A stretch of 64,000 bases of DNA, taken from positions 1,612,001 to 1,676,000 of the forward strand of contig WIUZ02000003.1 of NCBI GenBank assembly GCA_015956445.1. Direction: 5' to 3'. Position 1 is the first letter of the stretch. Each line of letters begins with the position of its first letter. This document shows, piece by piece, positions 15,529 to 44,905 of the stretch. The notes under the pieces were generated by a model, which did no database searches, had not been told where the DNA came from, and worked only from the letters and a program-made list of their open reading frames with translations. The position numbers and the translations under genes are program-made. This DNA is from Thelephora terrestris (lineage: Eukaryota > Basidiomycota > Agaricomycetes > Thelephorales > Thelephoraceae).

Positions 15529-16321
15529 CAGCCAGTTTTCTTCACAATGCGTGTGCTTGATGACTGGTGGATCAGAATCATCCCCATGATAGGGGGGTCT
15601 TATTTATTATTATTATTATAGCGCCGGCAAGCGGCATGGCCCACGACCGGCTTCTGTAATCCTCACGCCCTGCGAATAGATTGCTGCAACAATCCTCCTT
15701 CGACCCCTAGTTTTCCAGTTTCTCGCGAACTGATAGACCGACCCCTATTAATTACTTTTGTACCGCTGCCCAGTTGTATACCGACCACTAAAAATTTTCC
15801 ATTCAAGTAAGCACGCGCAGGATAAACCATGTTCCTGGCACTAGCAGGCAATCGTTGAACCGAATGGTCTGTTCAATTTTGCCTCCCAGATGGCACTTCA
15901 TCTAACCCTTAGTGGAGAGGCACGATGCTCACCGATTGCCTGTGGGGAAAAGGTAGGACCGGTCACCATGAATCCCATCAAGCTAGCCTGGTACCGCCAG
16001 AAATAGTTACGAGCGACAAGTCAATCTGGCCTCAAATCATGGGATTGTCACTGGGGGAAGACGCCTCCATGGTCGATGACGCAAGGAACACTTTGGATCT
16101 TTCGGACTACATCCATCCCCCTCAATACACTCGCCAAATCCGAAGTCACGTTTATCAGATAATACACAGGAATTGGTGGTGATAGAAAACTAGTGAAGAA
16201 GAGGGTGGGTGAGCGATGAATTAAACGTACAGTCACGGCGTAGCACATAGTTGTGAAGAATTAGTATCAGGACCCCTATAGAGCCCCATGGAGAGCCCTC
16301 CGTAATAACTCCCTCCTCATG
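15529..16321. other. Intergenic with an ATT microsatellite
   Basis: Contains a short (TTA)n run at about 15600-15620 just upstream of the protease-like gene start. No gene found in the remainder. Confidence 0.55.
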
Positions 16322-17808
16322 TTAATCGTTTCCTCGCTGATTCTTCCTCCCTCCACCTTCCGCAAAGCTTTTCGTTTTCCTCTCCTGCTTTCCCACCTCG
16401 AGTGAAGAATCTGTTTTCCAGTCTTGGTCGGAGGAATGCAGATCCATGACCGAGGGACTTCTGCGTCTCACAATGGCTTTGTCAAACGCCTTGATGATCT
16501 CCGTCCCGACCTCTTCACGGTCCATACCTGTCGCTACCAGTTCCGCGGCGTCGTTAAACTCCCTGCGGAGGATTGCGCGAACCGCCGCGCGTCGGAGTTG
16601 CAGGTCGAGCAAAGTGAGCTTGGGACCGCCTGGTTTCAATGCAAACGGGGTTAGGTCTTCATAGAAGAGTGTGGTGGAGGTCGTAAGGTTCGGAGCACCA
16701 ACGCTAGGCTTGATAGGAGTGAGGATAGGGACTGTTCCCGATGCGGGGGTCTTCTGTGCGGCTTTCGCCGTCTGCGTCGTCGACGTTCTGCTCGCGGATG
16801 TGGATAGGTCCCGCAGGTCAAGCCGACGACCGTCAGCGTTCTCCGCCCTCGTTGGAAAGCTCACAATTTCCCTCACTACACTTGGACCACTGTCTTTGAT
16901 GTCAACCTTAATTTTCTCGTTTTTCTTCTTTACCTCAGGAAAGACTCGAATCCCAAAGTGCATGGGGCGGAAGCTGCATCCTTGTCTGCGGTTGCGGCAA
17001 GGCTCGCACATCACGATGGTACCCTCCTTGCCTTTGCACCATATAGGGATGCAAGTCGTTTGGGGCGATTTTTTAGCGGAGCACGCGCCGCACACCTAGG
17101 GGACGATGAGCTTCACCATATCCACCTCTGGCGTATGCCACCCACCAATCCCTCTGCCTGAGGAACTACCTTCGTGTCCAGCCTATCCCCCTCTGTCATT
17201 TTCATCGAGCTCAAGTTCATTCCCATTGGACAAAAAGACCTCGTGTCTGTGTGTGGCTTGCTCACGTCCTTCGTCGATGCTTGGGGCGGTTGTGGAGTCG
17301 CACTTCCTTCAGCACTCGCAGTGTTGGCTGTCTCGGGTGTTCCTTTGGGGCTATCAACCTGGAAAGCCATATCCTCGGGCAGGCGGCGTCGTTTAACGCA
17401 AGTGTTCGCATATTCTGCAATGATCTTGAATGGCGTTAGATGAAATGCCAGGCAAAGCTCTCTGTGCCTCGTCTGCGCCCTTGCGCGGTGAGTCTTCCGT
17501 ACGCTGGAGCTCTTGAGTACGTTACTTACCAGCCAAGCCGATAGGTGCTGAGCCCATGGCTCCGCAAGCGCCGTCTCTTCTTTCAGACGCTCTTCCATGC
17601 TCTTGAGCCGCCAGATTGCCAGGACAGACTTCCACACGACGTCCTCGCATCCAGGAGAGCCTACGAGAAGACCCCGCAGGTCCACTTTTGCCCATCCGGA
17701 CTCGCGATCGGGGGTTTCCTCGTCCCTCTCCACCTCTTGGAACGCCTCAAACGGTGTGAGTCCGTTGGGGCCCTGCATGGGTGTCCACTCCAGTGAAAAG
17801 AAGTCCAT
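16322..17808 (-). CDS. Array gene A: six-cysteine motif protein of unknown family
   Basis: Exons 17808-17530, 17472-17146 and 17095-16322 join in phase 0 to 459 residues. Four modules: (1) an N-terminal module of 93 residues (LEWTPMQGPNGLTPFEAF ... WKSVLAIWRLKSMEERL ... EPWAQHLSAWL); (2) a short helix, TRHRELCLAFHLTPFKII, then a variable linker; (3) a cysteine motif, C-x2-C-x9-C-x14-C-x2-C-x6-C followed by SFRPMHFGIRVFP; (4) a C-terminal helical module (TLFYEDLTPFAL ... LDLQLRRAAVRAILRREFNDAAEL). The cysteine block could bind zinc and the Lys/Arg-rich flanks would suit a nuclear protein, but no known domain is recognised. The start at 17808 matches the position of the module start in copies B, C and E. 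Gene B is divergent from it. Confidence 0.8.
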
Positions 17809-18170
17809 AGAGAATGGGTAAACAGTTGAGGGTGACAAAGGGAGATGTGGCGGCGGAAGCTTTTCGTTCTGTCTCGCGCAATTACCGAATTGAGTTGCCT
17901 CACCTCAGCCGCATGTTAACTTTGTGTTCTCGTGCAGCCATGGCCGGTATGTCGAAGCGCTTGTATTTCGCGTGACTTATGTACGCCCAACATGGGTTCA
18001 AACCTCGTTAGATACTGTTCGTATTTGAGGTACATTCATAACAGAAGTGTATGAGAAGGGAACGCGCGGTTGATACACGACCAAAATGAGGCCGCCAAAT
18101 GGGGTAGGTGCGCGAGGCAGCAAAACCTTCCGCAGGCACGTCATCACTCTTCGCTTTAAGTTCTCTCCCA
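17809..18170. promoter_or_regulatory. Shared divergent promoter region of array genes A and B
   Basis: 362 bases separate two start codons pointing away from each other. Both genes begin with the same 93-residue module, so this is a true head-to-head pair. No specific element was identified. Confidence 0.5.
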
Positions 18171-19352
18171 ATGGACCTATCACTTGACTGGACTCCAACG
18201 AAAGGCCCGAACGGCCTGGCGCCATTTGAGGCGTTCCGATTGGTCGAGAACGATGATGAAACTCCAAGTCGCGGAAGCGGATGGTTGAAAACGGACGTGC
18301 GAGAGCTTGTCGCCCACTCTCCCGCTTCCGAAGATTTGATCTGGAAATCGGTGCTGGCAATTTGGCGGCTGAAAAGTATGGAGGGTCGCCTGAAGGAAGA
18401 GGAAAAAGAGCTCGCGGAGCCGTGGGCTGAGCACATGTCTGCTTGGCTGGTGAGTAATCTGCGTACCGTTAAACAGACACGGGATTGACTGCGTGAGGGA
18501 GTATAGACAAGGCATGAGGATCTTTGCCACGCTTTTCATCTTGAGCCGCTACAAATAATCACAGAGTGCGCGAAGGATTGCGTTGCAGCAGGACATATCC
18601 CCAACCGCATGGTTGCGCATTCCCGAGACCCGGAAATCATTCCTTTCCCGTGCGCGACCAAAAGCGATGAGAATGGTTGGGGTCCGCGATCGTCATGGCA
18701 CGAAAGAAAGGTGGAGAAGACCAATGAGGAACAGACGCCATTCCCGCCACAGGTGGACGAGGGGAACAGCACTGGACTTGCGCTAAACCGACCAGGCTCG
18801 TCAAAGAGGAAGAAGGGGCTGCGCAAGGGGCAAAGCACCAAGCGATTGGAGGGGACGTACGCCGATTCAAAACTGCAGATCTTTGCAGGAGCGGAAAGGA
18901 TGGAGGAGGAAAAAGGAGAGCTTGGGAGGATGGGGGAGAGTCTTTTAACGAGGGTGGGGAAGGTCAAAGGTCCTCTGCCTACGCGTTGGGAGAGGGAAGA
19001 AGAGAGTTTGGCAAGTGGAACGCCTCTCGCTTCCACTTCCAGTGCTCCCAACGTTGGTTCTGTGAGCACCATGGCGTCTGCAACCCTCTTCTACAGCGAC
19101 CTTGCTCGTTTCGGGGCTGGGCCATCGCCTCGAGAGATGTCTCTTCCGGACCTTGAGCTCCGATATAGAGACATTGCCAACGCTCTGCAAAGAGAGCGGG
19201 AGGACGCTGAAGAGCTTTTCACAATGGCAGTGGATCGCCGGCGGACGGCAACAAAAATCCTTGCAGCGCTGAATGAAGCCATAGTGCAACATGGGGGTCG
19301 CGCGATCCATCTCACGTGGGCGTTTGACGAAGAGACGGATGATGCGCAGTAG
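18171..19352 (+). CDS. Array gene B: paralogue lacking the six-cysteine motif
   Basis: Exons 18171-18449 and 18507-19352 give 374 residues. Exon 1 is exactly as long as in A and E (279 bases) and encodes the same module (MDLSLDWTPTKGPNGLAPFE ... AWL). Exon 2 opens with the shared helix TRHEDLCHAFHLEPLQII and ends with the shared C-terminal module (ATLFYSDLARF ... LPDLELRYRDIANALQRERED ... ALNEAIVQHGGRAI). The cysteine exon found in A, C and E is absent and replaced by a Lys/Glu-rich linker. The protein could thus be a partner or competitor of its divergent neighbour A that cannot make the metal-binding contact; that is inference. It is convergent with C. Confidence 0.75.
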
Positions 19353-19768
19353 TTACCGGTGTGGCGAGTGCAAAGGAACTCGTTTCAGGGGAGGGTTGTA
19401 TCCAGGCAGATGGTTCTTGCAGATCCTGCGCGACTCCGGTGCAGCGATAGAACCTATTGGGGCTGTGCGGAAGAGGTAGGAGGCGTGGCGCGAGTTGGAC
19501 GTGAGTGTGAGCTTGACGATCCGGGTAGGATGTACTGGAATGTAGTGTATAACAGTACGATCTTTTTTGACAGTAATTGTTATGGTGCGCGTTCATTGTT
19601 TACAGAATCCTTCCCTCTGTTTTCGAAACATAAGCCAAGTGTAATTGTCCACAGCGTCCTCGCAAAAGGTTACATAGAATGACAAAGCATGTTTACGCAT
19701 ATCGATGTTTCTCACAGGCGACAAGAGATATCCTGGGTGTTACACATGGCTAAAGACCCCTTTCTCCC
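19353..19768. other. Convergent 3' intergenic region of B and C
   Basis: 416 bases between the stop codons of B and C. No gene found. Confidence 0.6.
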
Positions 19769-21691
19769 TCACCCGTCCACCGAACCTTTCCCAGGGCTGT
19801 AGTCCGAATCGCTCGTGTCACTGTCTTCATCGCAACTTTCTCCCGACAGATTATCTGCTTTGCATACAAGCTCCCAAGGTTCGTACAATGCACTGCCCCC
19901 CTCATCCACAATTGCCTCGTTTAGCGCAGCGAGGATGTCTGCCCCAATCAGCCGACGATCCGTAGAGGTTTCCACAGCCTCTGAAACGGCGTTCCACTCC
20001 CTGAGCAACACTGCGCGAACTTCGTTCCGTAGTAGTTGGAGTTCGAAAATGGAATGGTCCTCGTCCGCCGCCGCTGCCGCAAACGGAAGGAGGTCGGCAT
20101 AGAAGATGGTTACCGAAGATGAACCGGCTGGATCAGCCCCAGCAGCCTGACTGGTAGCTGCAGCAGGAACCGCGGTTGAATCCAACGGCTCATGCAATCC
20201 TCCGGTGGCTTTCGTGTGCGACCTCGTAGATAGCAATGAACCCGTGTTTTGGAGTGGGTGCAGCATGTTGGTTGCCCTCCTTGTCCTTGTTTGGCATACA
20301 TTCCCCCTTCTTCCGATCGCCGAATCTGTTGTCCCTCTCTCCTTGCGTTTGGATTGCGCACCTTTCTTTCCTTTCTCCTTCTCAACCTGCAACAGTGTCA
20401 CCTGTGGCCACACCCCCACCCCAAAATCTTCTCCCTCGAAGGTGCATTTCTTGTTGCTGCGGTGGCAAGCTACACACTTTATCTTTGCACGGTCCTCACC
20501 CGCGTACCAGGTGGGAATACACCTCTCCCGAAGTTTCCGTCGTTCTGAACATCGTTCACACTTCTGTTGACTTCTTCAGCTTCTCTTCTACGAGATGGCG
20601 AGCTAAATACTCACCGCTCCCACCACTTGCGGAACAATTTGTGCATCCACTGCGTCTCCTTCCGCCATTGTTAAACCCCCCAGCTTGATCCCCGCAGCGA
20701 ACAACCCCCTCTCCCTCTCTATCCCAACAGTCGGATTGATTCCCGTGTGCGAAACAGTGGTTGTAGCCGTCCGTAGTCTCTTGGTGGAGGTGGATGGTCC
20801 ATCCGGTTTGCTTGGTGAGCTGGAAAGCCCTCGCTTCGCCTTTTTGCTCGTCTTCGCAGGTATGGTTCTGTTTTGCGGTGGCTCGGGCCTCGGCGTCTGC
20901 ACTACACCCGGGATCAAGATGGCTTTCTCCTTACCCTTGTGAGAGCTCTCTGCGAGCATCGTCGCATCACCTTCCGCCATCTCTACATCTTTGTCGTATT
21001 CTGTGGTTTGCGGCGTCGAAAGTCTAGAGGACATACTCTTGGCCGCTGGCGTGAGCATGTTGTCCATGTCGCTCAGCTGTGGAGGGTTCTCTAAACATGC
21101 ATTTCCCTCGTCGGAGCTTTTCGCAGCGGGGTCCGCGCCTTCGTCGACGGTTTGAACATTATCCCTACCATCTGGGACTTGAGTAGGCAAAGTCTTGGAC
21201 GACTTTGCATTCGAATGGAGGGCTCGGTATCCTCCACTTCCCCAAAGTCGGGAACCATGTGCGCCTGCAAAAGCTTCTGTTTCACAAACGCATGCGCCAG
21301 TTCGGTAATGAAATCGAATGGCATGAGGTTGAACAGGCGGCACAGATCCCTGTGCCTAGTCTACTTGCTCGTGCCGTGAGATCTTCTTGCGTTTGCCTCC
21401 AGTCATCTCACTCACCAACCAAGCAGACATGTGCTCAGCCCACGGCTTTCTCAGCTCCACTTCTACACGCAAACGAGTCGCCATCCTCCTGAGTCTCCAG
21501 ATCGCCAGCACAGATCTCCAGACGACTTCAAGTGTACAGGGAGCGTTGGAAACAAGCGCTTTGACGTTCCGCTTTGACCACCTGCTCGGGACGTGGGGAG
21601 CCTCGGCGTCCTCTTCTGCTAAAATGAATTCCTCAAACGGCGCAATCCCATTTTGGCCCTCAGTAGGGCTCCAGCTCAACGAAACGTCCAT
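19769..21691 (-). CDS. Array gene C: six-cysteine motif paralogue, middle exon irregular
   Basis: Exon 1 (21691-21416) encodes the N-terminal module; exon 2 begins at 21360 with TRHRDLCRLFNLMPFDFI; the last exon (20563-19769) carries CERC, nine residues, C, fourteen, C, two, C, six, C, and the C-terminal module (TIFYADLLPFAA ... LQLLRNEVRAVLLREWN ... ALNEAIVDEGG). The middle exon 21360-20615 is 746 bases, not a multiple of three: it starts in one frame and ends in another (GLTMAEGDAVDAQIVPQVVGA). Either a further intron is removed (candidate GTAGGG near 21174 to CCACAG near 21080, both phase 0) or there is a frameshift. A and E have no intron at this place. Divergent from D, convergent with B. 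Confidence 0.65.
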
Positions 21692-22062
21692 GCGGAATTG
21701 AGGGAGAGTTGAAAAAGACGACGGATCACGTGGCTAGAAAGACCGTTCGTCGATTCACGTGCACCTCCCCGATTTGGGCGCCGCGTTTGCGGCGCCGATG
21801 TGTTGTTTTACGAGCAGTTCTCTCCTTTTCTCACCAACCGACAGACCGTTCTCTTTTAAATATGTATATATTGTGTGTCCCTCAAGCGACGCCTACGGTC
21901 TTCGCAACTCATCGTTGATGTGTGGAAGCTGGTAAATTGATCGAGCGCGTGTGAACCTGACGCAAGGCTGAAGTCCGTGGTCCAAATTTGGTAGTGGCCA
22001 GAGATCAAATGAAATCGTCCGCCTGCAACATCATCACCCCTGGTACTCGACCCTCCTGCAAG
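21692..22062. promoter_or_regulatory. Shared divergent promoter region of array genes C and D
   Basis: 371 bases between the start of C (minus) and the best start of D (plus), nearly the same spacing as between A and B. A TTTAAATATGTATATA stretch at about 21855-21872 is the only TATA-like run. Confidence 0.4.
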
Positions 22063-22903
22063 ATGGAACAGGATTTGTCATTGGCGAACAGGAGAGTCTC
22101 CAACATCTTTTATGGATGTTCAGAGGCAGAAATACGCGGGCTGGTGGCTGGGACATCTGGATGGGAAAAAGACCTTTGGGGATCCGGCGCGGTGATCCAC
22201 TTGCGGAAGAACATGGAGGAGCGTCTATACCAGGAGGAGGGAGTTGGAGAGCCGTGGGCTCACAAGGGACTTGTAGAGCCGTGGGCTCAAAATACGTGGG
22301 CTTGGGGCGTGAGTGGAGTCGTTGCGTTATAGCAGAGACGGAATTGATCAAGTGTGAGATCAGAGCAGGTGTATTGCGAGGAACCGGGAGAATCGCTCAG
22401 CGATGAACAACAACGCGGAGGCGTCTCTACCTCTTCCCGGGTTAGCGGGAGTGACAGTGAGCCCTGGTGGTGAAGGCTCTGCGCAGCACGCAACAATCTT
22501 CCACGTTGACCTCGCCAGTTTTGCGTTGCCAACAGATCTAGTGGTATCGTTGGCGCAACTGGAGCTCCGGCGCACGGAGCTCATGGCTCTCTTGCACAAA
22601 GAAGCGGAGGACGTTGGGAAGGTTGTCAGAAGACACGCCGAACGAATGGAAACGATGGAGCTGATTATCGCAAACTTAAGCCGGGCCATCTCGCAGCGTG
22701 AGGTCGCCCTAGCCCACCACATCCGCGAAGCTGAAGATGGAACAGAAATGTTGTGGGGAGAGGGTAGTGATCAGGACGTGGGTGTGGAAGATGTTGAAAG
22801 GGATGACGGAGGATTTCAAGATGTAGTGGAGGAAGAGCTGGATCTTGACCCGCTGTTCCAGTGGGGTATCAAGGCAGTGCACGTTGGTGTCTTTGGAAGC
22901 TAG
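22063..22903 (+). pseudogene. Array gene D: degenerate paralogue without cysteine motif
   Basis: The first frame (from 22063) keeps only parts of the family N-terminal module: EIRGLVAGTSGWEKDLW, NMEERLYQEE and a duplicated EPWA stretch. The second frame (to 22903) keeps the C-terminal module: ATIFHVDLASFAL, then SLAQLELRRTELMALLHKEAEDVGKV, then an acidic tail. The linker and cysteine exon are absent and the splice that should join the two frames is not clear (candidate donor GTGAGT after WAWG). It may be a shrunken functional partner of C or a decaying copy. Confidence 0.5.
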
Positions 22904-23277
22904 CTGGGATCCATATGCTGGGGTGAATAGATATAAGCAAGAGCCTTTGCGCGGAGTTGCTACCGCGACGAGAGGCATTGACCTTGTGTGAGGGCAGAGT
23001 GGCACAGCAGCAGCGCAACTTGATGTATATCGCCGCCCAACCTTCCTCAATGGACGCGCATTCGAACGGTGCGCGAGACGTGTGTAGACTCGTTGCGAGT
23101 GTGGGCTCGTTTGTGAGACAGAGTCTCCTCGAGTTACATCCCTTCTCTCACCCTTTCAAAACGCAATGAAGAGGTAAACCAATAGAAATTCAGAAAATAT
23201 AGTTCATTTACGCGAGACAGCAGATATATAGATATGAACTTGTAATTATTGGCAAAAAAAACCTACGTTTCCTTCTC
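22904..23277. other. Convergent 3' intergenic region of D and E
   Basis: 374 bases between the stop codons of D and E. No gene found. Confidence 0.6.
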
Positions 23278-25453
23278 TCATGGTTGCGGTGGACTGTTCC
23301 CCCCCTGCGGCCCCTCAAAGTCCGGAATGCCTCCTCCCGCAGCGCTCCTAACCATTTGGTCCTTAAACGCGTCCGTTTCCAGGTTAATCATGTCAGCGAC
23401 GGTGGGCTCAAAGTCAGAGCGCGGAAAGAGAGGTCGACCACCACGTTCGACAATAGCGACGTTCAGCGAGGCGAGAAGCTGGGCTCCAATCTGGCTACGC
23501 TCGGAACCAGTGGCGAGGACCTCGGAGACATCGTTCCACTCCCTTCGCATAATTGTGCGGAGCTGCGTACGGTACAGCTGAAGGTCGAGCAGCGATTGCT
23601 CGGGATCCTGTGCCACCACTCCAAATGGAGTCAGATCAGCGTAGTAGAGGGTGGTACGGTTTGCAGCGTTGGGATCACCGGCAGAGGGACCAATGGGAGA
23701 TGGGGAATGGACCGTAGCCACTGCAGCGGTGGTCTGTGGCGTTACCATCGCCGGTCTCGTGGAGGGGGGCGCAGTAGATGGGGCTGCATTGCGCAGTGCA
23801 TAGCGGGTGGACTTAGCCTTCTTGGACCTCGTGATGGGACCGCTTGCACGTGTTGCGATGCTGGGAACGTCCACCACGCTCTCGGACTCCGTCTGCGGGG
23901 CCTCATCTTTGGGGATCAGGACTGGCCATATTTCGATTCCAAAGTGCTCGGCGCGGAAGCTGCACCCTTGCTTTCGATTCTTGCATTTCTGGCATTGGAT
24001 GTTGATTCTCTCCTGGCCGCCACACCATTGCGGCAAGCAACTCTCGCGCGAACCATCCCGAGATTCACAGCCAATGCATACCTAAGGGGGTGTGAGCAAT
24101 ACGTATATGATTGACCTAAAAGGCTACTCACCCGTTGCTTTGCCAACGGAACCATGGTCGTGTCCACCGGAGCTCCCTCATTCACTGTTATCACCCCGAG
24201 GTCCAGCCCTCCCGCAAGAAATGACCTGGCTTTTCCACCGCGCCGCTTTTTTGTAGACGTCGAGGGGCCGTCTTCCTTGCTGGGGGAGTTCGACAGCTCG
24301 CGCTTCGTCCCGATGGTGGGTTGGGTGCTGGGGACCTTCTTCTCCATGGGTCTGGGCCTCGTTTTCTTCTTTACCCCTTGTTCCTCACCGGCTCTACTCT
24401 TGCCTTTGTCAACCTTCCGCGGCACCACCAGCACGGCCTCCTCGTCCATCGGAACGTCCTCCCAGGGGCTGGGGGTTTGGGAAACGCTTGACCTCATCGG
24501 AACGTCCTCCTGGGGAGCGGGGGATTGCAGGATGTTTGTCCTCGGAACGAGTTCCTGAGGGGCGGGGGTATGGGAGAGCCTTGTTGTTATTGGAAAGACC
24601 TCTTGAGGGGCGGGAGTTTGTTGGAGGCTTGACCTCGTCAGAACGTTCATCTGGGGAGCGGAGGATTGGAGGATATTTGTCCTCGGAACCAGTTCCTGAG
24701 GGGCGGGTGTATGAGAGAGCCTTGTCGTTACCGGAAAGACTTCTTGAGGGGCGGAGATTTGTTGAACGCTTGACCTCGTCGGAACATCCATCTGGGGAGC
24801 GGCGGATTGGAAGATGTTTGTTCTGGGAACGAGTTCCTGTAGGGCGGGGGTATGGGAGAGCGTTGTCCTTATCGGAAAGACTTCTTGAGGGGCGGGGGTT
24901 TGTAGGACAGCTTGCCCTAATCGGGATGTCCTCCCGGGGAACTGGGGTATGAGAGGCGCTTCCCCTCGCAGGGGGAGCGGGTGTGCTTTCGTAGTTGGCG
25001 AATTCTGGAACCATGTGTGGAGCGATGTGTTCATTCTTGACGGCCTGTCGCGCATAGTTGAGGATGATTTCGAATGGATTGACATGGAAAGCCCTGCAAA
25101 GATCCCTGTGCCTCGACTGCACTCCCACCCTCAGCTCAGTCATGAATATGAGAGCCGATACTGAGGTTACTTACCAGCCACGCCACCATATGTTCCGCCC
25201 ACGGCCCTGCGAGTGACTCCTCTCGCTCCAACCGTTCTTCCATGCTCCGCAAGCGCCAGATTGCCAGCACGCACTTCCACATCACTTCCTCGCAGGCGGG
25301 GGAGTTCGTAATCAGCGCACGCATCTCCTTCTTGGACCAGCCAGTTCCAGGGTTGGGAGTTTCGTCGTCGTTCTCCACAATTTTGTATTCCTTGAACGGT
25401 GCGATCGCGTTGGGACCCTGGTCCGGAGTCCAGGTGGTAGAGAGGTCGCCCAT
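23278..25453 (-). pseudogene. Array gene E: six-cysteine paralogue with a one-base frameshift
   Basis: Exons 25453-25175 (279 bases, N-terminal module), 25116-24132 and 24081-23278. Exon 2 begins with SRHRDLCRAFHVNPFEIILN, passes through a 16-residue repeat region (TPAPQE units), then a Lys/Arg-rich segment, and ends in PLAKQR before a perfect GTGAGT donor. Exon 3 starts VCIGC and keeps the C-x2-C-x9-C-x14-C-x2-C-x6-C spacing and the C-terminal module (TLYYADLTPFGV ... LDLQLYRTQLRTIMRREWND). Exon 2 is 985 bases, 3n+1. The first repeat unit is 49 bases instead of 48, which places the extra base near 24900-24945. Without it the gene would be open throughout. It is therefore a very recent pseudogene, an allele, or a sequence error. 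Confidence 0.7.
24440..24958 (-). repeat. 48-base coding minisatellite with 144-base higher-order period
   Basis: About eleven units of 48 bases (16 residues, core TPAPQE..P) inside exon 2 of array gene E. Groups of three units recur as 144-base blocks (QTPAPQE.., HTPAPQE.., QSSAPQ.. types), so units were duplicated in threes. The unit nearest the exon start has one extra base. Confidence 0.8.
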
Positions 25454-25679
25454 GATGGGGAAGGGAGGCGAGCGTTGGGAACAAAGAAGATGGAGATGGC
25501 AGGGAAAGAGTTTTGTTTGTTTTTGCACTATTACCGTATTTGGACGCTTCGCGCCCTGGACGCCGCGTTGGGAACAAGTCGAAGGCTGGTATCTAGACTA
25601 GATATTACAGCTTCATGTCTGCACGCACGGTCACCTCCCTCCAATAGGCCCTATTCATGTAGGGAAGTGCACCCTTTTC

Positions 25680-26050
25680 GCTTTAACTTCCACCCTTCCC
25701 TCCATCACACCCAAGCGCTCAATGCTTTCGGTGAGCTCGCCTCCACTATGTCTCACGTTGCTCAACGATAAAGTACCGTATGTTCCACACCTTAATAATG
25801 ATGATCCTTGAGTCCACAACACCACAATTTATATTCGAGCACTTGAAATAGAGTGCTTGACTAGTTCAAAGATGTTTTGTTATTGAGGCGTGAAACATAT
25901 GGCCCAGTTTCAGTTCCATTCGTATCATCGAACATGGAACCGTTGCTCCGCTATAAATTCCCGACCCTTCCTCCTATCACACCAATGCGCTCAACCTTTT
26001 CCGCGAGCTCACTCAACTATGTCTCATGTTGCTCGGCCATGAAATACCTG
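25680..26050 (+). repeat. Two 90-base direct repeats
   Basis: A segment at about 25682-25770 (CCCTTCCCTCCATCACACC ... GTCTCACGTTGCTC) recurs with changes at about 25960-26050, roughly 278 bases away, between gene E and the next gene. No coding function is seen. Confidence 0.65.
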
Positions 26051-26102
26051 CTATAACGAATTTTACGATCAGGCTCACTTTTTTTATAAACGCAAATAAA
26101 GC

Positions 26103-27671
26103 TCACGTTCCCTCCAAGACATTGCTCACCTCAAAGACTGTCACGAGCGCACGTATCTCTCGCAACACAGTTCCGCAAATATGCCCGTGGGGCGCGATAA
26201 TGGTGAGAGATATTTGCTGCCCTTCGGCCGTCTGCTGCGCGACATATTCCCGCAAAGGTTGCCAGCTGCCTCGCTCCAGCGGAAACACGTCTTCCAAACA
26301 AAGATTTTGAAGCGATGGGAAGAGCTTCGTGTTGATGCCCCCCTCGTCTGGTTGCAGGAAACCGGTCTGCACTTCAACGTCAATAAGATGTACGTCGGTG
26401 ATGTTCGGCAACATAGACGCGAGCTGTTTGACAATGTCCATCGCCATCTCTCCCCCAAAGTATACCACCTCCTCCGTAGGAACGCAGGCCATAAGGTCTC
26501 TGCATAGCTGCACGTATTCGTCGTAGTCCATGTCCTCCGACAGATGAGCCTGGAAGGTCGCAAAAGTCCTCCTTTGCATTCTGTCCGCGCTTTGTGTAGT
26601 GTCGCTAGCTTGTAACTGGATATAATCTGACAAGCAGTGGAGTTCGATTCCAAGATCGCTGCGAAATTTCCGCTCGTGGCGAAGGTGTTGTCGTACCGCC
26701 CGACCGAGGGTATCCAGAATTTGGCGCGGTCCGGATTTAGCCGTGGTGAGGAACATGTGGTCAATAGACTGAGGACAGTGAAGCCGGCGAAGCAGGTGGT
26801 ACACCGACCGGTGACCTCCTTCAATGGAGATCTTCTTCAGCGCATGCATCGGAATGGAACCAATTGGGGAGTGTTCCTCTATGCGGACGGTCCATAGACA
26901 GCTGATAGTGACATTGCAAAGATGTGGATTGCGTCCCAACAAGCACAGCAGCTCAGGAATGGATGGGAGACTTGGAACACCGTCGTTCTCGAGCGTGAGC
27001 GCCAGAGTGGTGAGGGCCATCGTGTGGTTTGCGATAGTGGGCCAATCTGTAACGTGGGTACCCGATGCGAGGTTGAGGTAGGTGAGGCGGGGAAAGCGGG
27101 TGCGCGCCATGAATGCGGAAGCGTCCACGTAACGGAGAGCCATCGTCTGTAGACTGGAAACACGAAGTTGGTTTTCGTCTGGAGTCAACGCCTCAAGAAC
27201 CTCTGTGAGGACACCCTTCCTTTCGCTCCAGAGGTTAAGTGAACGGACGATGTCCCGTTCTGCGTGATCCCGTAGTGCCGCTAGAAGCGGACGGCAGACA
27301 GGGAAGGTAGAGCCGCCCCGAAAGCCACTGAGGGTCAGGTCCACTGGGAGCGCACCAGAGCGGTCGAAACGACTCAACCAGTGCGCAAGCTTGTGCCCCC
27401 AGAAGGTCCACAACTCGGGAGTACTGCGCGCGACGTGGTACCAACGGTGGCAAACGAATAGAAATCGATAGCAGGCGCCGTGCAGACTGTGCAGCCGGTT
27501 GTGGTCGCCTACGATGCAGAGGAAGATGTATCCGAGCAACTCGGGAGGGACTCGAATCGAGATGTTGAGGAGGGCGTTTCGCGCTCGTTTCAAGCGACCT
27601 GCATTTCCCATACCCTCCTCGATTTTCTTCTCCAATTTCCGTATATCAACCTCGTTGACCTCACGTCCCAT
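26103..27671 (-). CDS. F-box-like leucine-rich protein, copy 1
   Basis: An uninterrupted 522-codon frame. An N-terminal helix (KLEKKIEEGMGNAGRLKRARNALLN) leads into an F-box-like segment, ISIRVPPELLGYIFLCIV ... FVCHRWYHVARSTPELWTFW. Many leucine-rich segments follow (FPRLTYLNLASG, MLPNITDVHLIDVEV, FPSLQNLCLEDVF). This is the typical layout of agaricomycete F-box proteins, putative SCF adaptors. The gene at 31264-32868 is a full-length paralogue with the same N-terminal helix and the same C-terminal WQPL ... ISLT segment. The start at 27671 aligns with that copy. Confidence 0.85.
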   Translation of the reverse strand: MGREVNEVDIRKLEKKIEEGMGNAGRLKRARNALLNISIRVPPELLGYIFLCIVGDHNRLHSLHGACYRFLFVCHRWYHVARSTPELWTFWGHKLAHWLSRFDRSGALPVDLTLSGFRGGSTFPVCRPLLAALRDHAERDIVRSLNLWSERKGVLTEVLEALTPDENQLRVSSLQTMALRYVDASAFMARTRFPRLTYLNLASGTHVTDWPTIANHTMALTTLALTLENDGVPSLPSIPELLCLLGRNPHLCNVTISCLWTVRIEEHSPIGSIPMHALKKISIEGGHRSVYHLLRRLHCPQSIDHMFLTTAKSGPRQILDTLGRAVRQHLRHERKFRSDLGIELHCLSDYIQLQASDTTQSADRMQRRTFATFQAHLSEDMDYDEYVQLCRDLMACVPTEEVVYFGGEMAMDIVKQLASMLPNITDVHLIDVEVQTGFLQPDEGGINTKLFPSLQNLCLEDVFPLERGSWQPLREYVAQQTAEGQQISLTIIAPHGHICGTVLREIRALVTVFEVSNVLEGT

Positions 27672-28289
27672 GCTTATAAGTTATACTCTGTTAGTGTTCC
27701 CCTAAAATGGTGCCAGTCAAGGTCACGTGACTTACATCGAAGAGATTGCCCTGTAACTATTAGTGTTATCAGGGCGAGCGAAAGTTCCACCCGCAAGCCC
27801 ATAAGGTATTGAAGACCCTGGTGTGTCCCGATTGTAGGCGAACATCTTAGGACGTGAACGGGGGATGTCGTATGCATGAGCTCCCACTTTATAACATCAG
27901 CGGGCGTCGTGCAGCCCCTGTTTCAGAGCCATCGCAGTGTGATTCGTAAATGCCCGTGCGCTAGCTAGCTCTCCCGGCTTGGCGGAAAGGCAAGCGGAAA
28001 GAGTTCGACCCCGCAGAAATCACACCTGTCGGAGAGAGCTAGGCGTATGTGCAAATATGAAGCCGGATTTTCTTTCACGCTCAAGATACCAGCCTTTGAT
28101 CACCGACACGGCGCACATGACGCGAGGCGTCTAAATACGGTAACACTCTGCTTGTCGGCGACAGCCCTTTTACTCCAAGCTTCGTGCGCACCGTTGGTTT
28201 CAGCCCCAAATACATGTAGATTAGAGGGAACGTCAGGGCGGAGTTTTATTTTCGACACTACAAAGCACCAACAGGATGCCGCCAACTAT
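27672..28289. other. Intergenic with an inverted repeat
   Basis: No gene found. CTAGCTCTCCCGG at 27965-27977 pairs almost perfectly with CGGAGAGAGCTAG at 28030-28042, giving a 12-13 base stem around a 52-base loop; its role is unknown. Confidence 0.5.
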
Positions 28290-29656
28290 CACTGGGGGCA
28301 GGGGTTGGTTTACTGAGTCAGTAAACTGTGAGTAAATCACAAGCAAATGGAAAAAGAACCTAGTGAAATACTTGCCTGGCAAGCACAAAGCAAATTCACA
28401 ATTTACTGAGCCAATTTACCTGCAATTCACTGGGTTCAGTATGCGCTCAGTATGTTTACAGTTTACTGGGTCATGTGACCACAGTTTCCCCATTAGGTAA
28501 ACCTCGGAAAAATTCACAATTTACTGAATAAATTTACCTGCAATTTACTGAGCCACTTGCCCAATCAGTATGTTTTTAATTTGCTGAGCAGTTTGATCAC
28601 AGTTTACTGGACTCAGTAAACTGGAAAAAAACCAAACTGGTTTACTGACAACGTCCCTGATTGGTCAATTTTAAAAATAAACGAAAATTTACCTGGACGT
28701 GTCATTGTCAGTAAACTGCAAGTTTTCTTTCAGTAAATTGGAAATACACGTCAGGTAAACTGGGAAAACACGTGATGATTTTATCATGGTTTACTGGACT
28801 CAGTAAATCAGATAAAAACCTAACCAGTTTACTGACAATGTGCCTGATTGGGTAATTTGAAAAAAACTCGAAAATTTACCAGGACGTGTCTTTATCAGTA
28901 AACTGCAAGTTTTCTTTCAGTAAATCGCAAATACACGTAAAGTAAACCAGAAAACACGTGTAAACTGTAAGTAAATTCAAAGTTTACGTGTTTTCTGGTT
29001 TACTTTACGTGTATTTGCGATTTACTGAAAGAAAACTTGCAGTTTACTGATAAAGACACGTCCTGGTAAATTTTCGAGTTTTTTTTCAAATTAGCCAATC
29101 AGGTACATCGTCAGTAAACTGGTTAGGTTTTTTTCTGATTTACTGAGTCCAGTAAACCACAATCAAATCGTCACGTGTTTTCCCAGTTTACCTGACGTAT
29201 ATTTCCAATTTACTGAAAGAAAACTTGCAGTTTACTGACAATGACACGTCCAGGTAAATTTTCGGTTATTTTTCAAATTGACCAATCAGGGATGTCGTCA
29301 GTAAACCAGTTTGGTTTTTTTCCAGTTTACTGAGTCCAGTAAATTGTGATCAAACCACTCAGCAAATTGGAAACATACTGATTGGGCAAGTGGCTCAGTA
29401 AATTGTGGGTAAATTTGTCCAGTAAATTGTGAATTTTTCCGAGGTTTACCTAATGGGGAAACTGTGGTCACATGACCCAGTAAACTGTAAACATACTGAG
29501 CACATACTGAACCCAGTAAATTGCAGGTAAATTGGCTCAGTAAATTGTGAATTTGCTTTGTGCTTGCCAGGCAAGTATTTGGCTGGGTTCTTTTTCCATT
29601 TACTTGCAATTTACTCACAGTTTACTGACTCAGTAAACCAACCCCTGCCCCCAGTG
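28290..29656. mobile_element. Foldback (palindromic) non-autonomous element 1, CACTG termini
   Basis: A 1367-base near-perfect palindrome centred near 28973, with arms of about 670 bases. Termini are CACTGGGGGCA and TGCCCCCAGTG. It is flanked by TAT on both sides (28287-28289 and 29657-29659), a 3-base target duplication. The arms are filled with copies of TTTACTG/CAGTAAA. There is no coding capacity; frames inside are by-products of the repeats. CACTG ends with a 3-base duplication are those of CACTA/EnSpm (including fungal Plavaka) elements, so this is probably mobilised by such a transposase. Confidence 0.9.
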
Positions 29657-29850
29657 TATATACATTCATACTCGCCAACGCTTTCGACCGTTGCGCAGCA
29701 CACTTACAATCCCCCCTTCCCTGAGCCACTCGGCTCACCTTTTCGCACCACATTGTAAAACTTGGCTTCTTTCCCCGCGCGATTGGCCTTGCTCAAAACC
29801 TGTCCGGCCATCTTACGTGCGATGTCCTTTTGAATATGTTAGCCCACGGT

Positions 29851-30816
29851 TTACAACACTGTAGCACACACAATGCCTACCATACTAAGGCCACCGTCGA
29901 TAACATATATTCCTCTCAAGAGCTCGCGGAAGATGAAGGAATCGTTCGGCTGCTTGAGCAAGCGGAGGGCCATTCTCACTTGAACGATCTGCCCGGGGCG
30001 GATTTTGTTGGGAAGAATCTCACGACGAACGATATCCCTGTAGTGCTGTTTGTGAAATGCTCCTGAAACATATGGAAACAAATACCCAGTGGCCGTCGTT
30101 CCATCGCCGAAAAAGAAGACCTCGTTGTCCTTGGAAAAAACAAATTTGCCATGGCCGGCCTGAATTGCGGCTTCGAATGGGTCAGGGTTCTCAAGCGTAG
30201 GAATGGGCACTGCAGCTGCTCCAGGCGTTATCTGCAAGGAGGTCAACATCGCAGCGGACGGACGGAAGCAATTGGCGCCCGAAGCGAGGAATTGGGGAGG
30301 GGGGACGGCATTGTCGACACACAAGCCCATGAAGCTGCACAAGAGTTTGCTCGCCTCCACAGCTGCGTCAAAGGAGGGATCGGCAATCGCGGTAACTTTG
30401 ATCCATCGTCGGAAAAACGGAAATTTGGATCTGAGCGTGATGAGCAAAGAGACGTTGGGCAGCGCATGTTTAAACTTACTTGGCATATCCGGGGGGAGCT
30501 TCCAGGCACGAGTCAACTACCACGGCGATGACATCAAATACCGCCTCTTCTCCATTTGCCATCTGAAGCGCAACGTCCCCGTTGGGAAGCGCATTTGTTT
30601 TCATGTCGTCCGGAACTCTTTGAAAATCGCACAGAGGCTTCAGCTCATCGGAATATAATGCGTAGTAGCACCCAAGTTCTAAATCTAAACGGTTGCGACA
30701 ATTAAAACCCACAGTGCACTGTTCGTTGGTTACGTACCGGCATCACGAATGAGGTTGATGATGCTGTCTTCCCCAACCTTTTTAGATAGGGAACGCTGGG
30801 TACGAAACGGCGCCAT
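29851..30816 (-). CDS. Unknown family U, copy 1
   Basis: Exons 30816-30738, 30678-30480 and 30430-29851 give 285 residues with consistent phases. Readable blocks: SIINLIRDAELGCYYALYSD, ALPNGDVALQMANGEEAVFDVIAVVVDSC split over two stretches, FPFFRRWIKVTAIADPSF, AAMLTSLQ, and FEAAIQAGHGKFVFSKDN followed by EVFFFGDG. No signal peptide, membrane span or known domain is recognised. The gene at 33548-34465 is a paralogue. It is divergent from F-box-like copy 2, with 447 bases between the start codons. Confidence 0.75.
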
Positions 30817-31263
30817 GCTGCGAACGAACAGAGGAAACGAGGTTCACGCGAGGGGACCACAGCGCAGATATTTAGACAATTTCAACCCATGGGGCGACGG
30901 AACAAGCAACGGCAGATCCGCAAGGGGTGGGAGTTACCCCGCGGAGTGGTCCCCATTGCGGAGGCGCCGGTTGACCGCGTGCGCAAAGGATCGCGGAACG
31001 CGGCTACGGATCGGAGACCCGTGATAGGATGTTCCCAAGATGTTCCCATGCAGGAGTACCGGGGTGGGGCTGGGTTTGACTCTGGTGTAATATCCCCCGT
31101 ACGTTTCCGCGCAGACTTCGCGCAGTCTCCCTCTAACCGCACCATTGTCTTTTGCGAATGGCATCCATCCCAGACACACCTCCAGAGCCTGCCGCAGAGC
31201 AGATAAGTTCGATGTGAGCAGTTGTCCGCTTGCGGGGGACCTCCTCTCATCACATCACACAGC
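30817..31263. promoter_or_regulatory. Divergent intergenic region
   Basis: Sequence between the start codons of the family U gene (minus) and the F-box-like copy 2 (plus). No specific element recognised. Confidence 0.35.
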
Positions 31264-32868
31264 ATGGGAACCGAGATTAACCAGCATCGCATCCATCATT
31301 TGGAGTTGCAGATACGGTCTGCCGGCGGGGACACAATCGAACTCAAAAGGGCGCGCAACTCTCTGTTAAACATATCAATCCGCATTCCTCCCGAGATTCT
31401 TGGACACGTCTTCTACTGGACTGTCCTTGAGCGCCGCATACTACCCCGACTTCGAGGAGGCTCCCTCCATGTACTCTTGGTCTGCCATTATTGGCAAGAA
31501 GTCGCTTCCCAGACTCCTCGACTGTGGAGCTTTTGGGGACACCTATTGGTACACTGGTACCAGAGATTCAAGCTATCGCGCTCCGTCCCTGCTGATCTTG
31601 TACTCAATGGGTACATCGTTGGCGAGCGGTCTCCTCCCGTCCGCGAAGCCTTGCGCCTTGCGCTTCGAGAACACGCCCAAACGGATATCATCAACTCCGT
31701 GCAACTGTGGAACGAGAGAAGACCCATCCTAGAGCAAGTCCTCGCAGCGCTAACCCCTGACGAGGGAGAGGTTCGCACATCAAGCATCCGCATAATCAAC
31801 CTTCGTCTGGTCAACGCCTCCAGGTTCATGGCCCGTTTGCGCTTCCCTCAATTGACGTACCTCTGTCTCTCAACGGGAACGCAGGTTGTGGACCTGCGAC
31901 ATCTGGGGGAGCATACGGGGGCATTGTCGACCCTCGTGCTCACCTTGGAGAACCACGGCGCCTCGGCCTTACCCACCGTCTCTGAGCTGTTGCTCTTGTT
32001 TCTATATAATCCCCGACTCGAAGACGTTACCTTGCACAGGTTGCTGAGCAGGATTATCCCACCCGGTTTCCCCATCATTCGCGTGCCATTGCGCAATCTC
32101 AAAAGGCTCACCATCGACAGTGAAGCTCAATCGATCTTCCAGCTGATGAAACGCTTGGCGTATCCTGCGGACCTCGAAGCTATCTCACTTATGGTAGCTG
32201 ACTATGGACCCAGCTCCATCTGCGATACATTAGGAAAAGTGGCGTTGGATTACTTTCAGCTTCAGAGTGGACGTCGGGTAGAAGTTGGGATCGACGTTCG
32301 GACTCTCCGCAAGTCGATCTCTGTCCAGGCGGACAGTATTTTGGAAGGCGCAGACGGAAACGCGATGGGAACCTCCGCAAGGTTCATCGTGTATGTACCT
32401 CTTTTCACCGGCCGGCGCCAATACGTCCAGTTGTGCTTGGATCTCGTGGGTTGTGTACCCCCACTGGAGGTGACTGCCTTTAGAGGGGAGCTGAGCGCCC
32501 GAATCGTCCAAAGGGTCATCAAGACCATGCCCAATATACTGGATCTTCACCTCGTCCACGCGGAGCTAGAGCCTGGATTCCTGCGACACATCCCCACCAC
32601 TCCTAACGTCCGTCTTCTTCCAAGTTTGCGTCGGCTGTGTTTGGAAGAGTCGAGCACTCATGAGGGCAGTTGGCAACCCCTTGTTGAACTTTTGGCAGAG
32701 CTTTCTGCAGATGGTAATGATATATCGCTCACCATGCTAGAACCGCAAGAGCACATTTGCCGCCATGTATTACGGAACATAGAGCTGCTAGTTGCGGCTT
32801 TTGATGTGGATGGGAGCGTGGATGCGGATTGTCCATTCGATTGGTGCGGAGTGACGGAGGAAGGGTAG
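31264..32868 (+). CDS. F-box-like leucine-rich protein, copy 2
   Basis: A single frame of 534 residues from the ATG at 31264 (MGTEINQHRIHHLELQIRSA). The F-box-like segment is NISIRIPPEILGHVFYWTVL ... LLVCHYWQEVASQTPRLWSFW. Leucine-rich segments follow (FPQLTYLCLSTG, MPNILDLHLVHAELEPGFL, LPSLRRLCLEES). It is a paralogue of the gene at 26103-27671 along its length. Eleven bases after its stop begins a decayed Helitron helicase end on the opposite strand, so the copy may have been moved or rearranged with a Helitron. Confidence 0.85.
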   Translation: MGTEINQHRIHHLELQIRSAGGDTIELKRARNSLLNISIRIPPEILGHVFYWTVLERRILPRLRGGSLHVLLVCHYWQEVASQTPRLWSFWGHLLVHWYQRFKLSRSVPADLVLNGYIVGERSPPVREALRLALREHAQTDIINSVQLWNERRPILEQVLAALTPDEGEVRTSSIRIINLRLVNASRFMARLRFPQLTYLCLSTGTQVVDLRHLGEHTGALSTLVLTLENHGASALPTVSELLLLFLYNPRLEDVTLHRLLSRIIPPGFPIIRVPLRNLKRLTIDSEAQSIFQLMKRLAYPADLEAISLMVADYGPSSICDTLGKVALDYFQLQSGRRVEVGIDVRTLRKSISVQADSILEGADGNAMGTSARFIVYVPLFTGRRQYVQLCLDLVGCVPPLEVTAFRGELSARIVQRVIKTMPNILDLHLVHAELEPGFLRHIPTTPNVRLLPSLRRLCLEESSTHEGSWQPLVELLAELSADGNDISLTMLEPQEHICRHVLRNIELLVAAFDVDGSVDADCPFDWCGVTEEG

Positions 32869-32879
32869 GGAGGATAGAA

Positions 32880-33190
32880 TGTACATTGAGCCGTATCACA
32901 TGTGGAATGCGAAATCGTTTGCGATGTCCTGTGGCATCGCCCGATATGTGCGGAGCTGGTTGCGCAACCTTGGCGACCACACCGTCCCATGTTGCGCAAC
33001 CGTCTCCCATTGAGGGACAGACACCGAAACATGTTCCCCAAGTGCTCCAACTGTCTTTTGGCAATTCGTTTGAAAGGAGGTCTGGGAGCACCTTCATAAT
33101 GTTCAAGGGCGTTGCCGTCGATACCATCAGACACGGAGGATCAGTTCCCCTACGCGTTTTCATAAGCAAGCTAGAAACACTTTGAAGAAT
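32880..33190 (-). pseudogene. Helitron helicase C-terminal relic
   Basis: Translated on the minus strand, GTDPPCLMVSTATPLNIMKVL corresponds to GTEPPYVMVSRATSLNAIKVL near the end of the intact Helitron protein at 37490-44532. At the DNA level the match runs from about 32950 (ATGTTGCGCAACCGTCTCCC) to about 33165 and aligns with 37630-37800. The rest of the helicase is missing and several frames are needed, so this is a truncated dead copy. Confidence 0.75.
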
Positions 33191-33547
33191 TCTACGAATA
33201 CAAGGAAATGGTACAGAGACTGTGTGCAGCGTCTCCGCCGTGTGCTACATTTTGGGGACCCATTGGACGGCTGAGCAACCTATTAATCGTCGCAGGGAAG
33301 GAGCTCCCCTTGCGCACCCCCCGCCACAACAGGAGGGGGCAAACATGCCATAGTCAACTCTTCGTGAACGAGATGGATACTCTTCAGCAGCTGGCGTGCT
33401 CGGAAAGAACCATCCGGCTGGAGGATAAGGCGTGGCGACATAGAGATGCGTGCCACCCTTGCCTCCTTCACGGACGCCGGACGTATGTAACGCCTAAAGA
33501 TCTCCCTGTGATGATGTCAGCGTGTGAATACAGCACTATACACCACC
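33191..33547. other. Intergenic, no gene seen
   Basis: Lies between the Helitron relic and family U copy 2. Only short frames without recognisable content. Confidence 0.5.
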
Positions 33548-34465
33548 TTACCCGTTGCGCAGCACGTCATCGCCGAAAAAGAAAATCTGGTTGTCGGCGG
33601 AGAAAACGAATTGCCCATGGCCGTTGCGAATGGCGGCCTGAATAGGGACTTCGTTGTCCAAAGGCGCAATGTCCACAGGCTCAGCGGTGGGGCATCGAAT
33701 CAAGGAAGTCAACATTGAGGCCGAAGCACACACGTGGTCCAGCTGAGCAACTACCGAGAGAGTCGCCGAAACATCCCCCCCCGCAGCGGTGGCCATGAAG
33801 GTATACAGCTGGTTCCTTGCGGCCAAACATTCCGCGAACAACGGATCGTTTATGCCTTCCAGCCTCACCGATCGTCGAAAGTCAGGAATGTCATCCCTGG
33901 ATTGGCTAAGAATGGTGTACCCACGATGAAAACGAAAGTACCTTGGAAGCCCATGAGGAGCAACACAACAAGCCTCCGTGATCACGCCGATGACATCGAA
34001 CGTGGCCTCGACGCCGTCCATGCGCCTCAAAATGATATCTCCGTTTGGGAGCACCTCGTTATGAAGCGCATGCTGTACTGTGTTGAATTTGAACAGAGGG
34101 TTGAGGTCCTCAGAGAACGCCTCGTAAAGATAGCTCAAGTTGAGAGCTTGAGTGTAGGGCATTGAGAGGAAATAAGCCAGTTGTTTGCGGGGTGTGTATC
34201 CTTTACGCACAAGGTGTAGGTAGTACGGGGCAGTCGTCTGCCATAGTTGCGGAATTCTTGTGAAGCTGCACGGGAGTCTCGATGCAAAGTAGGACACTGG
34301 GAGCGCTTGGCGCAGTCGAAGGGGCGTCGGCACTGTAGGTCGAGGGGTGTCTGACGGATAATATCCAATCAATGTACCATCCGCCCGCGATGTATTCGGA
34401 ACAATATCGCAGGGGAGGCGGAACGAGTTGAGCGCCGATGGTACCCAACCCCTCTCATCTCTCAC
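33548..34465 (-). CDS. Unknown family U, copy 2
   Basis: A 305-codon frame containing a 48-base in-frame intron candidate (GTACTT..CCAG) that would join GLPR to DDIPDFRRSVRL. It shares with copy 1: ALHNEVLPNGDIILRRMDGV, VEATFDVIGVITEACC, ASMLTSLIRCP, and IQAAIRNGHGQFVFSADNQI with FFFGDD. The N-terminal 100 residues are longer than in copy 1 and may include unspliced or non-coding sequence, so the start is uncertain. A donor-like GGTAAGG at the end suggests another small exon. No function can be assigned. Confidence 0.6.
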   Translation of the reverse strand: MRDERGWVPSALNSFRLPCDIVPNTSRADGTLIGYYPSDTPRPTVPTPLRLRQALPVSYFASRLPCSFTRIPQLWQTTAPYYLHLVRKGYTPRKQLAYFLSMPYTQALNLSYLYEAFSEDLNPLFKFNTVQHALHNEVLPNGDIILRRMDGVEATFDVIGVITEACCVAPHGLPRYFRFHRGYTILSQSRDDIPDFRRSVRLEGINDPLFAECLAARNQLYTFMATAAGGDVSATLSVVAQLDHVCASASMLTSLIRCPTAEPVDIAPLDNEVPIQAAIRNGHGQFVFSADNQIFFFGDDVLRNG

Positions 34466-34539
34466 ATACGCGGACTCAAGCGGATTGGTTCCGAGATGAG
34501 GGGGGTGTCTGTGAAACAGGGTATTGCATGCGCGATGGG

Positions 34540-35580: not shown

Positions 35581-35658
35581 TTCAACTGTATTCTGCGATA
35601 ACGGATTGCTTGCTCCTTCGATTGCTCATTACGGCTGTGCCTCGTATATACCTGTAGC

Positions 35659-37174: not shown

Positions 37175-37489
37175 GCTGAGTTGGGGGAAAAGACGTCTCC
37201 CACCCCTGTTGGGCGCGCTTGGCTTTATAGGTGTGGGAAAGCCTATTTCGAATAAAAGGGGATAGCTCCTACTTTCCGCAAAATGCCGTAGATCTTCCCG
37301 CAACTCGCCGCGAGCTGATCCCACTGATACAGTAGGCCTCTGGCCAGCGCTTCCTGTGCGTAGCACGATGTGAATCTCTCCAGCGCTTAGTATGGGGACA
37401 TCGCTCCACATCTACATCGTTCCCTGCAAAGCTTCCGCACACGCATTTTCCGCGCGCGTTTTCGGTGGTATGCTCCACGCGCTGTATGT

Positions 37490-44532: not shown

Positions 44533-44638
44533 GGTGACAGTGAGCAACTGAGCAACAAACGATGGCGAAGCGCGGGGAGGACGACGACGAAGCGCAAGTA
44601 CAGCAATGGCAAAGCGCAAGCGTGGAAAGGAGGCAGCA

Positions 44639-44726: not shown

Positions 44727-44905
44727 CAAAGGAGCGGCAATTTCAAAATCCCACGATTTTCGAGTCGTTCAGCCAAATCGAAAACATTAAAACAACACGA
44801 CCCCCTCCCTATCGGTCGTGGGGATCAAGACTGCTAAGATCATCTCATACGATCTTTATAATTTTCATAAGGACTACTGCTGGTGCTTGAGCAAGAGAGC
44901 GATGA

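Follow-up and report, generated by a model that had tools for sequence, protein, structure and literature searches.

The 64,000-nucleotide stretch of Thelephora terrestris DNA analysed here (the window, part of contig C23 in a 40.6 Mb assembly of 60 contigs) holds an array of five related genes, A to E. Sequence comparison places them in an orphan family borne by two unrelated transposon carriers: a giant Helitron, in which the array lies, and Ty3/Gypsy long terminal repeat (LTR) retrotransposons. The genes alternate in orientation (A-, B+, C-, D+, E-), and the divergent pairs are separated, from start codon to start codon, by 362 bases (A and B) and 371 bases (C and D). A, B and E have a first exon of 279 bases, against 276 in C, all as the initial annotation of this DNA had described. 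Gene A (16322..17808, minus strand) has exons at 17808-17530, 17472-17146 and 17095-16322, and gene B (18171..19352, plus strand) at 18171-18449 and 18507-19352. Gene C (19769..21691, minus strand) consists of exon 1 at 21691-21416, a frame-broken exon 2 at about 21360-20615 and exon 3 at 20563-19769. Gene D (22063..22903, plus strand) has exon 1 at 22063-22308 and exon 2 at 22364-22903, the acceptor of the latter being picked by eye; the joined frame is open. Gene E (23278..25453, minus strand) has exon 1 at 25453-25175, a frame-broken exon 2 at 25116-24132, within which lie 3.1 copies of a 141-bp tandem repeat (24484..24918, minus strand), and exon 3 at 24081-23278.

An N-terminal module had been reported for all five genes, and it is indeed shared, with the reservation that in D it is degenerate (82 residues; 36% identity to A over 73 columns). 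The N-modules of A and B are 70% identical, and a 131-aa query from B, covering the N-module and the start of exon 2, finds 52 matches in the genome; the relatedness of the array genes lies far beyond chance. The reported inventory of modules was incomplete, in that a six-cysteine block in A, C and E had been overlooked and with it the existence of two gene classes. The block forms the start of exon 3 (16970..17095 in A, 20438..20563 in C and 23956..24081 in E, minus strand throughout), its six common cysteines reading C-x2-C-x9-C-x3-W ... C-x2-C-x6-C, and it is absent from B and D. Since A, C and E (minus strand) have the block and B and D (plus strand) do not, class and strand coincide. Class-1 genes (A, C, E) encode an N-module, a variable linker, the six-cysteine module and C-terminal helices, and class-2 genes (B, D) retain the C-terminal part. 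By eye, an SPSK/basic stretch can be recognised in the linkers of C, E and the retrotransposon genes, and not in A. Cysteine block, helical end and SPSK/basic linker would together fit a nuclear DNA-binding regulator.

The family was first described as one not recognised, a description that database searches bear out. No Pfam family passed its cut-off with the family exons and public models tested (a set that does not contain exon 2 of C and E), including the N-terminal and last exons of A-E, for which a profile search had been proposed. A PDB sequence search returned no relative of the array family. Protein searches over about 5.8 billion sequences matched only T. terrestris, 7 different proteins in all (3 at E<=1, 6 at E<=0.01 and 3 at E<=10), although the searches at E<=1 and E<=0.01 scored about 8000 candidates and could miss distant relatives. 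Among the public models are P0001, which represents the C16 copy of gene A and is 96% identical to A, and P0003, which corresponds to gene B on the same contig.

The real unit at this locus is not the 9 kb array but a Helitron of about 29 kb, an identification of the array's carrier for which the anatomy is well supported. The element occupies 15618..44824 on the minus strand (about 29.2 kb). Its 5' end reads A followed by TCCCCACGACC at 44824 (A at 44825, TCCCC from 44824; letters from the window copy alone), and at its 3' end a hairpin is followed by CTA at about 15618, the exact terminal base being uncertain by a few bases. The RepHel gene (37490..44170, minus strand) encodes a 2226-aa protein with DUF6570, Helitron_like_N (E 2.3e-34) and PIF1 helicase (E 1.4e-22) domains, and the Helitron copy on C1 likewise has a 2226-aa open frame. 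RepHel stands on one side of the array and the 3' end of the element on the other. The stretch from window position 43,900 recurs on C1, C12, C16 and C25 at 99-100% identity, the matches ending at 44,825-44,831 in all four cases. Nine of the ten 3' ends read are of CTRR type followed by T, either CTAA (L038, L039, L040, L043) or CTGA (L044-L048), and the window copy's own end reads CTAT; L044-L048 have one common flank, so five of the nine are not independent. A GC-rich hairpin in the last 60 nt has a folding energy of -20 kcal/mol (RNA parameters). The left flank (9001-15500) is single copy in the genome apart from weak matches, and the sequence from about 15,600 recurs at 99.6% identity on C1 and at 99.5% on C16, where it takes in A, B and part of C. 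Contig C8 has two further array copies, an internal one with C-D-E (96%) and one at its start with part of A (99.5%). Left ends were read in the window, on C1, on C16 and at the start of C8, and all four have the same breakpoint, beyond which the AT-rich flanks are unrelated.

The copy on C1 (2634191-2662047) is 27.9 kb long, and the difference in length from the window copy matches a 1.37 kb palindromic insert inside the latter (28290..29657; 577-nt arms, 95% complementary). Copies of this insert, 92-96% identical, are also found in L020 and L034. That near-identical Helitron copies might be allelic haplotypes was considered and rejected for the main picture: the RPB1 domain occurs at three loci only, as expected of an effectively haploid assembly, the left flank is single copy, and the flanks of the copies differ. 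Both Helitron ends (3' 78%, 5' 93%) also stand about 4.5 kb apart at C12:453366-457895, with no array match there; this is probably a short non-autonomous relative. The 3' terminal 95 bases or so recur at 86-87%, again with no array match, at C4:57397, C59:66668, C58:504766, C34:2466823, C12:716806 and C1:4480488, and as those 3'-end places that were read (L044-L048) have one flank in common, they are copies of some larger repeat.

Could the array nevertheless be a self/non-self or mating-type recognition locus, as the initial annotation suggested by analogy with fungal mating-type gene pairs? Two classes of paralogue in head-to-head pairs with nearly equal gaps are the kind of layout that invites the comparison. 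However, the array occurs at several places as cargo of a mobile element, and Homeobox_KN has two matches in the genome, on C15 and C56, away from it. The absence of a homeodomain, which the annotation had itself conceded, holds by Pfam for exon 1 and the last exons of A-E and for the whole of P0001, P0003 and P0005. The mobile copies refute this explanation in the main, leaving it very improbable, and its mating-type form was rejected. What survives of the multi-allelic idea is a faint echo, namely the strongly diverged gene cassette in similar retrotransposon backbones described below. The counter-possibility named alongside it, that the genes are transposon fragments or scattered in the genome, proved largely right as to mobility and dispersal but wrong as to fragments, since these are whole cargo genes and not pieces of a transposase open reading frame (ORF).

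Outside the Helitron the family recurs in a second, quite different setting. A genome search returned 44 family matches; after removal of the 3 class-1 genes of the window, 6 short B/D-type C-terminal matches (window and array copies) and 1 second piece of a locus, 34 places were kept, comprising 8 Helitron copies and 26 others. At nineteen of these 26 the gene is antisense to, and converges with, a Gypsy-type pol, at a distance of up to 4 kb in 17 cases and of about 10.5 kb in the other 2, against an expectation of about 0.14 under random placement, although the copies descend from few events and the 19 places are not 19 independent ones. The flanks read are of 5 different kinds among 7 group-2 copies and 6 among 6 group-3 copies, and the pairs L021/L022 and L026/L027, which have common flanks, look like duplicated segments rather than separate insertions. 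The L021 frame at 620-4186 matches RNase H and Integrase_H2C2 over cut-off and RVT_1 at 27.6 bits (cut-off 29.6); the integrase core had no match in the Ty3/Gypsy carrier frames tested by Pfam. Upstream of pol in L049 (C58), DUF4100 and gag-asp_proteas pass the cut-off and a zinc knuckle falls under it, a region that can be read as gag-protease. A query made of the final 879 bases of the C58 element matches both sides of pol plus gene on C58, C23, C13, C14, C15, C12 and C45, with paired matches starting 10.8-11.8 kb apart (21 kb on C45). These flanking matches on seven contigs are LTR pairs, a pairing seen in group-2 elements and in which the LTR start was not located; the 3' end of the element, the one end whose letters were read, is ...AGTTCA. 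The gene accordingly sits antisense between pol and the 3' LTR in at least two Ty3/Gypsy subfamilies of T. terrestris.

The introns of the retrotransposon genes are of GT-AG type and stand in the same places as those of gene A; intron 2 of L030 also reads open. Their survival may be due to the antisense orientation of the gene with respect to the genomic RNA: read in that RNA they are no introns, and they would not be spliced out during retrotransposition. Related Gypsy pol copies (68-75% identity) with no listed family match beside them stand at C15:530735, C2:655015, C56:1497425, C60:3336 and C9:83127, and these may carry other accessory genes. On C19 (L035:4044-9039), a diverged class-2 (plus) and class-1 (minus) pair lies tail-to-tail with no listed pol beside it; of all the family places it may come closest to an older locus or one outside transposons. 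An ORF at L035:424-1041 (minus strand) shows by eye the classical Zn2Cys6 spacing C-x2-C-x6-C-x10-C-x2-C-x6-C, with a Pfam Zn_clus match at only E 1.6.

Comparison of closely related retrotransposons reveals that the family gene lies in a diverged cassette. The pol regions of L021 and L024 (group 2) are 98-100% identical in 300-base steps, with 17 changes in 1185 codons and a synonymous divergence (dS) of 0.014, whereas their family genes show 58 changes over 90 codons in the N-module and 114 over 228 codons in exon 3 (dS 0.40-0.66), with ratios of nonsynonymous to synonymous divergence (dN/dS) of 0.25 and 0.32. The diverged block, at about L021:4580-7480, covers the gene, its surroundings and at least about 260 bp of the LTR, and beyond it identity returns to 95-100%. 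For group 3, L030 and L032 are 91-99.7% identical on the pol side and 57-80% across the gene block (about L030:3720-6180); the last 1.1 kb or so before the element end is mostly 90-100% identical, with single 60-base steps at 82 and 62%. The ratio dN/dS is 0.25-0.32 in group 2 (L021 vs L024 and L025) and 0.31-0.43 in group 3, at dS 0.6-1.1 (L030 vs L032, L033, L034 and L036), where the exon comparison spans intron 2 and includes up to two in-hit stops. These ratios show purifying selection on the gene in its retrotransposon setting. Because noncoding sequence in the block has diverged as well, recombination between element lineages, for example by template switching, would explain the pattern better than fast protein change alone.

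The cassette structure suggests that the family genes set some form of specificity. Group 2 would fit a joint exchange of regulator and LTR target; group 3 does not show such exchange. At its fullest, this line of thought makes the gene a specificity cassette traded across transposon classes, with carrier-specific anti-silencing or immunity alleles exchanged between near-identical retrotransposons in the way that phages exchange immunity regions, and with transfer towards the Helitron, which would have taken up the same system and multiplied it into class-1/class-2 pairs. We regard this extended version as tentative and on balance doubtful.

The explanation we favour, with a probability of roughly 55%, is that the family is an antisense accessory of Gypsy elements, that the array consists of accessory genes multiplied locally, downstream of RepHel, on a giant Helitron, and that class-1 proteins are nuclear regulators of their own carrier. 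They would most likely act in the nucleus on the element that encodes them, either relieving host silencing or repressing the element and counting its copies, and the class-2 proteins B and D may be their partners or modulators. A different role, in which the protein helps element DNA to reach or choose chromatin targets in the manner of a retroviral accessory, would agree with the basic stretches seen by eye in the linkers and with the nuclear location of antisense accessory proteins in some plant LTR elements, according to a review (PMC7264820). However, Helitrons and Gypsy elements integrate by unrelated chemistry. That two unrelated transposon classes keep the family under purifying selection makes a role usable by both carriers likelier than an integration helper tied to a single chemistry; a shared regulator or anti-silencer would be the more natural choice, and we consider an integration or nuclear-import function unlikely.

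How well do the Helitron genes themselves support a retained regulatory function? Several observations weigh against it. Genes C and E of the window copy each have a broken frame in exon 2, the C gene on C16 is cut by other sequence, and that on C8 has one stop and has lost its 3' end, so not every array gene can be needed by every copy. Taken singly, D and E have dN/dS values of 0.74 (0.33-2.5) and 0.65 (0.32-1.6), intervals that include 1 and leave neutrality open for each of them. The conservation of most of the last 1.1 kb in group 3 leaves a joint change of protein and LTR target unproven. On the side of the protein, the AlphaFold model of P0001 has a mean confidence score (pLDDT) of 36.6, offers no confident fold and was not used, and PF00172 (Zn_clus) matched no family protein tested. 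The fungal Zn2Cys6 binuclear cluster has six cysteines at set spacing; the block of A, C and E resembles it in its C-x2-C ... C ... C-x2-C-x6-C pattern with basic residues and departs from it in its longer loops as well as in the missing Zn_clus match. Finally, at 7 of the 26 non-Helitron places (C24, C3, C21, C6, C14:2063 and the C19 pair) no pol is listed in the vicinity, although at C24 a pol region is present by DNA identity.

The decay just described, with C deteriorating in different copies, E broken in the window and D and E individually compatible with neutrality, is what would be expected if the Helitron had passively picked up a host or retrotransposon gene that hitch-hikes without benefit to it, and the report on HELPO1 elements shows gene capture by Helitrons to be a known process (PMC4289320). 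The pooled comparison of C, D and E between the window and the C8 copy nevertheless gives dN/dS 0.44 (bootstrap 0.26-0.74; 700 codons), with gene C alone at 0.14-0.15, and purifying selection is seen in the retrotransposons too. At the frame breaks of C and E in the window, the C1 copy stays open throughout exon 2 of either gene; introns were for that reason rejected as the cause of the frame change, and an assembly error in the window could be responsible. Of the six pairs of N-modules among the array paralogues, four have dN/dS values of 0.13-0.24, with a dS (1.4-2.5) that is near saturation, and two have no computable dS; most pairs between the window, C1 and C16, as well as L021/L028 and L030/L031, differ by too few changes for usable dN/dS. 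Expansion to five genes likewise argues against a passenger: the N-module tree unites A-E in one group (85/99, short of the tool's star) and places the group-2 retrotransposon copies nearest to it. Stars mark 2 of the 10 inner branches of this tree, the branch of A-E being unstarred, and it is usable with care. The exon-3 tree is too weak for use. Passive capture seems to us improbable.

The places without pol bear on another possibility, that this is a host family resembling transcription regulators which both element classes captured independently, so that the C19 pair and the C21 place would be host genes. Seven such places (six if C24 is excluded) could be counted in its favour, as could the divergence of the C19 pair from the other tree rows and its position near the cysteine-rich ORF with Zn2Cys6 spacing by eye. 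On the other hand, protein searches, two of which scored about 8000 candidates, give no relatives in other species, which would be odd for a conserved host gene, and we judge a host origin of this kind rather unlikely. 

How do these elements compare with known systems? HELPO1 Helitrons of Pleurotus ostreatus carry captured genes capA-capF, of unknown function, downstream of RepHel (PMC4289320). The T. terrestris element is likewise a basidiomycete Helitron that has TC/CTRR ends, bears its cargo downstream of RepHel, occurs in several cargo-bearing copies and appears to have AT-rich target sites; unlike HELPO1 elements, which measure 1.5-13.7 kb, it reaches about 28-29 kb and holds five paralogues. 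This is about twice the fungal maximum of 14 kb stated in a 2019 review, which gives 39 kb for maize (PMC6431247). According to the HELPO1 report the cap genes have no copies outside Helitrons (PMC4289320), whereas the T. terrestris family is also present in LTR retrotransposons.

Among LTR elements, the closest counterparts are the antisense additional ORFs of plants (aORF-3R), namely maize Grande gene23, rice RIRE2, Silene Retand and Phaseolus PvRetro13 (PMC7264820). That review gives their origin as unknown, one reason being that no similarity to other transposable elements had been seen, and it mentions introns nowhere. The T. terrestris gene differs in having introns, in being common to a Helitron and in forming a diverged cassette within similar backbones. 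The gene brtn of Boty-like retrotransposons in Botrytis cinerea offers a fungal case of an antisense additional gene; Botrytis is an ascomycete, and the passages on brtn in the two sources mention no Helitron counterpart (Zhao 2011, as cited in PMC7264820 and PMC8365987). The best functional parallel may be VANC, the anti-silencing proteins of Arabidopsis VANDAL transposons, which, in the account given of them there, are transposon-encoded accessory proteins with conserved and highly variable regions, the latter tied to tandem repeats (PMC5735166). Exon 2 of E also holds tandem repeats, of 141 bp. The parallel is one of function only, as VANC belongs to another carrier class in another kingdom, and anti-silencing would be ascribed to the T. 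terrestris family by analogy.

In literature searches confined to open-access PMC papers, no title or opening of an abstract among those listed pointed to a gene family common to a Helitron and an LTR retrotransposon. The T. terrestris family is an exception both to the statement that aORFs resemble no other transposable elements and to the restriction of cap genes to Helitrons. It therefore bears on the open question of where the extra genes of transposons come from: with clear Helitron relatives of an aORF-type family at hand, one can test directly whether Class I and Class II transposons exchange accessory genes.

Other features of the window are incidental to this argument. The Helitron cargo includes two F-box-like ORFs, both under the Pfam cut-off, at 26103..27680 (minus strand) and 31207..32868 (plus strand). 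Just past the Helitron 5' end, at 44905-45628, lies a short element with 49-nt perfect terminal inverted repeats, whose end matches about 20 places at 95-99% identity. To the left of the Helitron, 5078-6823 (plus strand) encodes a DUF6535 protein (E 7e-38).

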